Origin: an uncultured Pelagibacteraceae bacterium
GTDB lineage: Bacteria > Pseudomonadota > Alphaproteobacteria > Pelagibacterales > Pelagibacteraceae
DNA length: 64,000 nucleotides
Reading direction: 5' to 3'
NCBI GenBank assembly: GCA_902557215.1
Contig: CACDZM010000002.1
Coordinates: 1 to 64,000 of the forward strand
The notes under the pieces were generated by a model that saw only the letters and a program-made list of their open reading frames with translations, made no database searches and had not been told where the DNA came from. This document shows, in pieces, positions 13,511-20,424 of the stretch. The stretch's first letter is position 1; each line of letters begins with the position of its first letter. A program made the position numbers and the translations under genes.

Positions 13511-13587
13511 GCGCCTGTAGCTCAATTGGATAGAGCGCTTGGCTACGGACCAGGAGGTTCTGGGTTCAACTCCTAGCAGGCGCACCA
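13511..13587 (+). tRNA. tRNA-Arg (anticodon ACG)
   Basis: A 77-nt cloverleaf with all four stems: acceptor GCGCCTG/CAGGCGC, D stem GCTC/GAGC, anticodon stem CTTGG/CCAGG around loop CTACGGA, and T stem CTGGG/CCTAG with TTCAACT loop. The anticodon ACG would be edited to ICG to read CGU, CGC and CGA. The 3' CCA is encoded. Confidence 0.97.
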
Positions 13588-17170: not shown

Positions 17171-17493
17171 CATATATAGTAAATCAAAATTGCATAAAAT
17201 GTAAATTAATGGATTGTGTTGAGGTTTGTCCTGTTGATTGTTTTTATGAAGGAAAAAATATGCTTGTAATTAAACCGGATGAGTGTATAGATTGTGGCGT
17301 TTGTGAACCTGAGTGTCCTGTCGACGCAATCAAAGCTGACACAGAGCCTGAAAGTAAACAATGGATTGATCTTAATACAAAGTATTCTGAAATATGGCCT
17401 AACATAAACAAAAAAAAGGATCCACCTTCGGATCATGAAAAATATAAAAATGAGCAAAATAAGTTTGAAAAATATTTTAAAGAAAACCTTTAA
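17167..17493 (+). CDS. fdxA: Seven-iron ferredoxin FdxA
   Basis: A 108-residue 3Fe-4S/4Fe-4S ferredoxin of the alphaproteobacterial FdxA type. Cysteines at 9, 12, 17 and 21 and then 40, 43, 46 and 50 ([14 protein letters not shown]) give the two clusters. The C-terminal tail with [15 protein letters not shown] is characteristic of the family. It is a cytosolic electron carrier. The last 59 bp overlap the 5' end of the carD frame, so the two are probably coupled in translation. Confidence 0.95.
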
Positions 17494-18310
17494 GACAAAA
17501 TCTAAGAAAAAAACAAAAAAAGTTAAGTCCAATAATAAAGGGAAAAAAATCAAAGTTAAAATTAAAACTAAACCAATAAAAATTAAAAATGTTTTAAAAA
17601 AAAAGAAAATACCAAAAATAAATACAAAAAAAAATGAGAAGATAGAAATTAAGTCAGAGTCACTTAGAATTTCAAAAAACAACGAACTCAAACCAGAAAT
17701 CAAGAAAGTAAAAAAACAAGAAACCGAAAAAAGAGAGTACAAAATTAAAGATTACATTGTTTATCCAAAACATGGGGTAGGTCAAATTTCTGAATTTAAA
17801 AAAATAAATATTGGTGGAATAGATGTAGAAACATACATAATTAAATTTGAGAAAGACAAAGCAAGTGGAATGGTTCCAATAAATAAACAATCCCACTTGA
17901 GACCATTAGCAACTATCAATCAAGTTAATAAATGTATTTCTATTCTAAAGAGTAAACCAAAAATTAAAAGGTCAATGTGGAGTAGACGAGCCCAAGAATA
18001 TGAGGCAAAAATTTCTTCTGGTAAAATTTATGAATTAGCTGAGGTTGTTAGAGATTTAAATAAAGGAGATGATTTGATGGTTGATCAATCTTACTCAGAA
18101 AGACAACTCTTTGAAAAAGCGTATGAAAGAATTTTATCAGAATTTCAAATAATTCTCAATCTATCTCTAGAAGATACTCAAAAAAAATTAGACAAAGCAC
18201 TAAAAAGAAACTTAAGTCCACAAACCAAAACTAAAGATGAAAAAAATGATTCATCCAAAATATCTAACGAAGAACCTATCTCTGAAGAGGTTGAGCAACT
18301 AGAGGAATAA
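17435..18310 (+). CDS. carD: CarD/CdnL-family transcription regulator with Lys-rich N-terminal extension
   Basis: RNA-polymerase-binding regulator. Family members bind the beta subunit through a Tudor-like N-domain and stabilise open complexes, mainly at stable-RNA promoters. The recognisable domain starts near residue 102 ([17 protein letters not shown]) and continues with the helical DNA-contacting region ([29 protein letters not shown]). At 291 residues it is about 120 longer than usual. The first 100 residues are an extension with 39 lysines and no predicted fold; an acidic tail closes the protein. A second ATG at 17450 would shorten it by five residues. The extension overlaps fdxA, yet the frame is open and continuous, so I keep it. 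A strong terminator follows immediately. Confidence 0.85.
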
Positions 18311-18373: not shown

Positions 18374-18451
18374 TTATCTTCTTCTTCTTTTCTTAGCTTT
18401 TTTCTTAGCTTTTTTCTTAGCTTTCTTTGCTTTTTTTCTTCTCTTAGGCAT
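18374..18451 (-). CDS. 25-residue hyperbasic Lys/Arg/Ala peptide
   Basis: The frame begins MPKRRKKAKK and consists of AKK/AKKK repeats ending in four arginines, then tandem TAA stops. Of 25 residues, 13 are Lys, 6 Arg and 4 Ala, so it resembles a histone-H1 or protamine tail. The signals for a real gene are unusually complete. There is a GGGAG Shine-Dalgarno six bases before ATG (18458-18462), a TTGACA-type promoter upstream, a perfect 8+8 inverted repeat in the leader, and a terminator after the stop. No family is recognised. A role in compacting nucleic acid or associating with ribosomes is only inference. It is convergent with carD, whose N-terminus is similarly Lys-rich. Confidence 0.75.
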   Translation of the reverse strand: MPKRRKKAKKAKKKAKKKAKKRRRR

Positions 18452-18473
18452 CTTTAGCTCCCTTTTTAGTTAA

Positions 18474-18492
18474 ACGAATCAAAATGATTCGT
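18474..18492 (-). promoter_or_regulatory. Perfect inverted repeat in the leader of the basic peptide gene
   Basis: ACGAATCA, three A residues, then TGATTCGT: 8-bp arms with no mismatch. It lies just downstream of the predicted transcription start, so it could be an operator, or a 5' stem-loop that protects the mRNA. Confidence 0.6.
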
Positions 18493-18502
18493 CATTACGT
18501 TA

Positions 18503-18531
18503 TTTTTATTTTTTTATGAACGTTATGTCAA
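18503..18531 (-). promoter_or_regulatory. Sigma-70-like promoter for the basic peptide gene
   Basis: On the minus strand TTGACA (18526-18531) is followed after 17 bp by TAAAAA (18503-18508). The perfect -35 hexamer and proper spacing predict a start near 18495 and a leader of about 44 nt. The DNA from here to 18649 is extremely AT-rich and shows no other feature. Confidence 0.55.
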
Positions 18532-20339: not shown

Positions 20340-20424
20340 TGGTGGGCGAAGAGAGAATCGAACTCTCACTTCTTGCGAAACACGATTTTGAGTCGTGCGC
20401 GTCTACCAATTCCGCCATTCGCCC
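20340..20424 (-). tRNA. tRNA-Leu (anticodon CAA)
   Basis: An 85-nt class II tRNA on the minus strand. The acceptor GGGCGAA pairs with TTCGCCC, followed by A and an encoded CCA. The anticodon stem CACGA/TCGTG encloses loop CTCAAAA, giving anticodon CAA for UUG. A long variable arm and the GTTCGATTC T loop are present, as expected for tRNA-Leu. Confidence 0.96.

Follow-up and report, generated by a model that had tools for sequence, protein, structure and literature searches.

A gene for a 25-residue, strongly basic peptide, found beside carD in a 64,000-nucleotide stretch of DNA from an uncultured member of the Pelagibacteraceae (hereafter the window), is apparently a feature of the SAR11 order, and its translation start signal is the reverse complement of the hairpin loop of a small RNA, the orphan Rfam family RF01814 ('rhtB sRNA'). 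Because this loop and the start signal of the gene, located at two distant sites in the genome, mutate in step, RF01814 appears to act as a dedicated off-switch for the peptide gene. The best explanation, and one that we regard as likely on the comparative evidence, is that RF01814 represses translation of a mini histone H1- or protamine-like protein by an antisense mechanism.

SAR11 bacteria are among the commonest in the ocean and are known for their few regulators. The apparent core set of this abundant group gains a gene that the family libraries searched do not contain, and an orphan RNA family acquires a testable target through the co-change of two distant loci. If the proposed reading is true, the few gene controls of SAR11 would include one that sets the dose of a DNA- or RNA-packing peptide post-transcriptionally, which would bear on nucleoid organisation in very small, gene-dense cells. 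Proteins of such size and composition can go unannotated and can also be missed by standard tryptic proteomics: digestion with trypsin, whose cut sites follow Lys and Arg, would leave the peptide without any usable fragment.

A small polycation gene convergent to carD

A sequence-only reading of the window had proposed that this peptide is the product of a deliberately expressed gene, and the signals on which that proposal drew are all present in the DNA (Table 1): a TTGACA promoter box (found as TTGACAT in the leaders of relatives), an exact 8+8 inverted repeat, a GGGAG Shine-Dalgarno sequence six bases from the ATG, two stop codons (a TAA TAA tandem), and a terminator hairpin. The composition of the peptide was likewise confirmed from the sequence (13 K, 6 R and 4 A; 19 of 25 residues basic), as was the rarity of Shine-Dalgarno sequences among the genes of the window, where GGAG or GAGG does not occur within 18 nt upstream of any of the 53 ORFs of at least 100 aa (0/53, the first ATG being taken as the start). 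Within the window, the peptide ORF is the sole ATG-started frame of at least 18 aa in which K+R reach 50% or more, and no ORF with K+R of at least 60% was found in 60 first-order Markov sequences of window length.

Table 1. Coordinates of the polycation locus and its signals within the window.
Feature	Position	Strand	Basis
Gene for the polycationic 25-residue peptide MPKRRKKAKKAKKKAKKKAKKRRRR, stop codon included	18374..18451	-	sequence, selection, synteny, composition
TTGACA, -35 box	18526..18531	-	sequence; leaders of relatives
TAAAAA, presumed -10	18508-18503	-	17-nt spacer from TTGACA
8+8 perfect inverted repeat ACGAATCA-TTT-TGATTCGT	18474..18492	-	sequence; folded
The same repeat as RNA: hairpin ACGAAUCA-UUU-UGAUUCGU, near the presumed 5' end of the transcript	18474..18492	-	
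GGGAG, Shine-Dalgarno	18462-18458	-	six bases from ATG
GGGAGCTAAAGAT, Shine-Dalgarno to start codon	18450..18462	-	complement of the 13-nt RF01814 loop encoded elsewhere in relatives
Intrinsic terminator (hairpin and T-run)	about 18353-18309	-	sequence, fold; apparently common to the convergent carD end
carD, convergent neighbour and synteny anchor	17435..18310	+	Pfam CarD_C and CarD_TRCF_RID

The carD gene of the window carries a long Lys-rich N-terminal extension (17435-17740): counted from the first ATG, about 100 residues precede the Pfam RID domain, whose first residue is 102. Several other genera have shorter carD open frames. Elsewhere in the window lie a tRNA-Arg (acg) gene at 13511-13587 and a tRNA-Leu (caa) gene at 20340-20424, the latter overlapped by spurious short ORFs.

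Since a protein-level search of the window's own genome with the peptide gave no match, as a result of low complexity, the convergent neighbour carD was chosen to anchor the locus, and could be matched in 82 of 101 same-genus genomes. A basic ORF convergent to carD is present at 80 of these 82 loci, the remaining two being contig ends that fall 134 and 86 nt past carD. Among 100 same-genus coding sequences (66 distinct), the peptide is 21-35 aa long, save for one 16-aa copy (G068), and the frame is kept in 99. Among all the relatives read, two (G068 and G106) have frames broken in A-rich stretches, possibly through sequencing errors. Synonymous changes are in marked excess across 153 close pairs (334 vs. 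140.5 expected, with 156 vs. 349.5 for non-synonymous changes), where the expected counts come from placing the same base changes at random and the pairs, sharing ancestry, are not independent. This comparison, which the sequence-only reading had recommended, indicates that the peptide gene is under purifying selection, and close relatives, examined for loss of the frame, the Shine-Dalgarno sequence or the basic character, retain all three. None of the 100 same-genus peptides (42 distinct) contains an acidic residue, and the Arg fraction is 0.35 in residues 2-6, 0.00 (rounded) in the middle and 0.71 in the last five residues, giving a layout of Arg-rich ends around a Lys/Ala middle.

The regions flanking the coding sequence are also conserved: TTGACAT occurs in 102 of 102 leaders of sufficient length, 99 of 104 leaders have an exact CGAATC..GATTCG (of the other five, three are from same-genus genomes and differ by one stem base), and a loose terminator pattern is matched in 73 of 105 relatives. 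The 5' hairpin formed by CGAATC..GATTCG is near-invariant across the genus and occurs in some other genera as well; this constancy exceeds what mere stability of the stem would call for, and the hairpin may be a second control site.

In the other genera of the family, carD was matched in 26 of 30 genomes. With L137 and L138 left out (downstream sequence absent or carD match doubtful), a basic ORF with an ATG start occupies the corresponding site in 22 of the remaining 24 loci, and the other two have a GTG start (L130) or a broken frame (L117); the peptides of these genera measure 19-58 aa. A second family of the order yielded carD matches in 18 genomes, from which 11 loci, all of one genus, were examined: ten encode a near-identical 85-aa Lys/Ala/Pro protein convergent to carD, and in the eleventh (L160) the sequence ends 66 nt after carD. 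Outside the family but within the class, no convergent basic ORF was found at any of 28 carD loci (30 examined, from 97 genomes with a carD match, minus two that belong to the family), using ORFs of at least 15 aa with more than 33% K+R and more than 20% K within at most 1300 nt downstream (309 nt in one case). Its presence in two families, together with its absence from the 28 outside loci, suggests that the gene is a property of the SAR11 order, and we consider it near certain from these comparisons that a genuine, vertically inherited small-polycation gene lies at this locus. The earlier proposal of a deliberately expressed, conserved and very basic peptide is accordingly well supported by synteny, spread, selection and the Markov control.

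A pattern scan able to match either the peptide start or the sRNA locus returned at least 120 stretches, and the 80 matches listed are all assigned to Pelagibacteraceae, Pelagibacterales or Candidatus Pelagibacter. An 18-nt pattern has six matches in viral contigs, none of them followed by the frame of the peptide. The class also includes a distant genome, G320, whose carD is immediately preceded by an H1-like reading frame rich in Ala and Lys (L196, from about position 851).

Searches of Pfam and NCBIfam returned no family for the 25-, 31- or 58-aa forms, and the 85-aa form gave a single irrelevant Pfam match (E 8.5). The peptide forms match no histone H1-like profile in Pfam or NCBIfam, and Pfam gives no match to a DUF1127 domain in the peptide. 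Profiles of ribosomal mini-proteins (bTHX, bS22, bL37) and PDB sequences, the latter searched with the close variant MAKRRKKAKKAKKKAKKKAKKRRRR, were also without a match, both being searches in which low-complexity queries match poorly. Within Pfam, NCBIfam and the PDB sequences, the statement that the peptide fits no described family therefore holds.

A mini nucleoid or RNA-compacting protein is a plausible reading of this composition, and one that gains from the existence of longer, H1-like forms outside the window's genus, those of one genus of the second family included; we lean slightly towards nucleic-acid condensing as the peptide's job. The main rival, which we judge unlikely, makes the peptide a mini-protein of the ribosome, integral or associated and specific to the lineage (cf. 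bTHX, bS22, bL37), its dose being matched to ribosome supply by the sRNA. Ribosomes do contain short all-basic proteins of similar size, and the strong promoter, a Shine-Dalgarno sequence of a kind seen at none of the 53 longer ORFs, and the constancy of the Arg-rich ends would all suit such a role. The near-pure K/R/A/T/P composition and the absence of a Pfam or NCBIfam match argue against it, as does a length that ranges from 19 to 85 aa through gain and loss of K/A-rich repeats, behaviour closer to that of an unstructured tail than of a protein fitted to rRNA.

The RF01814 loop and the peptide start signal

RF01814 was described in Pelagibacter as a bulged hairpin with a conserved loop, followed in about half of its elements by a poly-U track; its function was left open, regulation or a termination signal near rhtB being proposed, and no target is named in the part of the paper available to us (Meyer et al. 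2009, PMC2704228). The leader of the peptide gene in the window matches this family on the opposite strand at 26.2 bits, below the cut-off of 55, and this sub-threshold match arises because the 13-nt RF01814 hairpin loop is the reverse complement of the gene's Shine-Dalgarno sequence and start codon. The window site is thus not a member of the family, but the complement of its loop only. Further Rfam matches to the leader (ctRNA_pT181, PyrR, DUF2815 RNA, OxyS and SAM_alpha) lie far below cut-off and were rejected.

The pattern GGGAGNTNAARATG has 18 matches in eight same-genus genomes, eight at the peptide start, seven opposite RF01814 and three elsewhere, vs. three matches for the reversed control pattern. 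RF01814 exceeds the 55-bit cut-off in 54 of 80 genomes (54 of 69 same-genus, 0 of 11 from other genera) and, in a second set, in 7 of 10 (7 of 8 same-genus, 0 of 2 from other genera); among the genomes examined it is found in the window's genus only, a distribution narrower than that of the peptide. In the other genera, where RF01814 was not found, many start sites have drifted (e.g. GGGAGATAAAG, GGGAGAAAAAA, GGAGAGCAAAG), and two near relatives from other genera (L113, L114) retain GGGAGCTAAAG at the start site. The predicted duplex of each sRNA with its own target has an energy of -34.7 to -46.3 kcal/mol (n=67; stem opening not subtracted), vs. a best value of -23.9 and a median of -11.8 kcal/mol for the 53 window ORF starts paired with the sRNA of one relative. 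Targets with Pro at codon 2 have one mismatch, just outside the loop.

In total, 71 RF01814 elements were read, and 67 genomes could be scored at both the element and the peptide start. At the core position where G is replaced by A, 60 of these genomes have G at both loci, seven have A at both, and none is discordant; 58 of the 67 (55 G/G, 3 A/A) were chosen before the variant was known, and nine (5 G/G, 4 A/A) after the variant lists had been seen. The 98 genomes common to both loci among the matches listed, a set that overlaps the 67, divide into 92 G/G and 6 A/A, again with none discordant. An A at the peptide start is found in at least nine genomes among the matches listed, in seven of which the element is readable and always carries A; in the A-type genomes G605 and G066, the element pattern was not found among the matches listed.

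On a tree built from carD and the adjacent ligase gene, each locus has changed three times, on the same three branches, a coincidence reached by 1 of 200000 length-weighted random placements. Well-supported branches force the three changes, and placement of the nine A genomes in one clade, a group named after the tree had been seen, is rejected by the AU test. With only three independent pairs, a sign test cannot reach significance and returns p 0.25. The 11-nt core is identical between the loci in 64 of the 67 genomes, and the three exceptions (GAGAG in the element of G053 and G084, GTT in the target of G099) retain G-U pairs in the antisense reading. Pairing of the RF01814 loop with the peptide mRNA is strongly supported by these comparisons, and we hold an RNA-RNA link between RF01814 and the peptide start to be very probable.

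Transcription along the RF01814 strand is indicated by TGnTA, as in an extended -10 element, which all 71 elements carry 6-8 nt ahead of their first stem base; further upstream, 64 of 71 have a TAATGC whose last base lies 30-33 nt ahead of the hairpin. The predicted RNA folds into a hairpin with a 13-nt loop. In the 47-nt hairpin class (61 elements), 13 of the 14 stem pairs are standard in every sequence, G-U included; the remaining pair fails in four of the 61, and two pairs change on both sides. Only 16 of the 71 elements have four or more T among the 8 nt that follow the hairpin, so the 3' end of the sRNA is unclear in most. The opposite strand leads into a DUF2805 gene and has no conserved ORF across the 71 elements. 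A second protein gene on that strand, beginning MAKKDY, was considered and rejected: its length varies, and 43 of 71 frames stop at three codons or fewer.

The direction of the DUF2805 gene gives rise to an improbable alternative: RF01814, read on the opposite strand, would be a segment of the DUF2805 5' leader, and the 14-20 nt common to this leader and the peptide mRNA would be a site in sense orientation to which a protein or RNA binds, with a third factor driving the co-change. The match is indeed sense-to-sense with the strand that runs towards DUF2805. However, the extended -10 element directs transcription along the RF01814 strand, from the start of the hairpin, in every element, the strand required by the alternative is without a conserved ORF, and the G-U compatibility of the three identity exceptions favours the antisense reading, if weakly when taken alone.

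The RF01814 locus is divergent from the DUF2805 gene (PF10985; e.g. L180, L184), which is the probable counterpart of SAR11_1363 in HTCC1062, and in one-contig genomes it lies far from the peptide gene. This distance bears on a further alternative, still less probable, that the peptide is toxic and RF01814 its antidote RNA. A small peptide mRNA paired with an antisense RNA over its start site does recall type I toxin-antitoxin systems, in which a hydrophobic toxin is controlled by an antitoxin RNA that is usually adjacent or overlapping. Here, in contrast, the two loci are far apart and the peptide is polycationic rather than hydrophobic; moreover, it stays beside carD across the family and the second family, and is present in other genera where RF01814 was not found. 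That the ORF is fortuitous within a purine-rich noncoding RNA, as its low-complexity AAG/AAA/AGA sequence might suggest, is extremely improbable given the synonymous excess, the frame kept in 99 of 100 same-genus copies, its persistence in other genera and the conserved Shine-Dalgarno sequence.

RF01814 over cut-off was not found in the window's own genome (88% complete), and neither was its neighbour DUF2805. A near relative on the carD/ligase tree (G056) has both in the usual arrangement, and the missing sRNA locus is probably an assembly gap; the sRNA is assumed to be present in the window's own genome. Same-genus genomes without a detected element are mostly incomplete ones, and in G009 (92% complete) neither RF01814 over cut-off nor, among the matches listed, the element pattern was found. 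Among the matches listed, of which a few are due to chance, the pattern is present in 39 of the 44 same-genus genomes that are at least 90% complete, so some genomes may lack the element.

A proposed antisense control of the peptide

From the gene, its selection and synteny, the complementarity and the in-step changes, all obtained by comparison, we infer how the sRNA may be transcribed and where it may end, its repressive effect, and the binding partner of the peptide. In the window's genus (taken as Pelagibacter), an extended -10 promoter would start an RNA of about 50-60 nt at the first base of the stem-loop. This trans-encoded sRNA, produced from a locus separate from that of the peptide gene, would use its 13-nt loop AUCUUUAGCUCCC to pair with GGGAGCUAAAGAU of the peptide mRNA, in a duplex that could extend into codons 2-3; masking of the Shine-Dalgarno sequence and AUG would then block ribosomes. 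The peptide, for its part, would bind and neutralise nucleic acid in the manner of a histone H1 tail or a protamine. Repression rather than activation is the effect that we expect with some confidence. More tentatively, the peptide may be a protamine-sized general condenser of the streamlined SAR11 cell, dosed by a dedicated, trans-encoded hairpin RNA that masks its start codon; this fuller picture is possible, if somewhat less than an even prospect.

Comparison with described systems

Searches of the open-licence PMC literature showed, among the matches listed, no target for RF01814 and no description of this protein; among those matches, rhtB is named only by Meyer et al. 2009 (PMC2704228), and the available part of an mdRNA-Seq study with SAR11 start sites (PMC5069720) does not mention it. 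The sRNA considered here is of the same family as the RNA described in the part of PMC2704228 available to us, with the same hairpin and conserved loop, and differs in its interpretation: the loop is here assigned as antisense to the start of the polycation gene. A minimal polycation/antisense pair of this kind has no prior description in the open-licence PMC literature searched.

RNA-OUT, the antisense RNA of IS10, is itself a hairpin. According to the available part of PMC5006887, it is complementary to a translation initiation region and blocks ribosome binding; an RNA antisense to the Shine-Dalgarno sequence and start codon is proposed here also, one that would work alike without being a member of the same family. 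In contrast to RNA-OUT, which overlaps its target on the opposite strand of the transposon, RF01814 is encoded at a separate chromosomal locus, and its putative target is a core polycation gene.

The CcsR ('cuckoo') sRNAs carry anti-Shine-Dalgarno loops. In alphaproteobacteria, the same class, these sRNAs are coupled with CcaF1, a small RNA-binding protein (PMC10253847, in the part available), offering a further case of a small protein linked with an sRNA. CcaF1, however, is a 71-aa protein with a DUF1127 domain that is co-transcribed with its own sRNAs, whereas the SAR11 peptide gives no DUF1127 match and has its sRNA encoded at another locus.

Bacterial histone H1-like proteins and protamines form the comparison class for Lys/Ala/Pro repeats, which are found in the long relatives of the peptide (85 aa and 58 aa); within the genus, the likeness is carried by the Arg-rich ends and the absence of any acidic residue. 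Unlike these proteins, the SAR11 peptide measures a mere 21-35 aa in the genus and is under apparent dedicated control by an sRNA.
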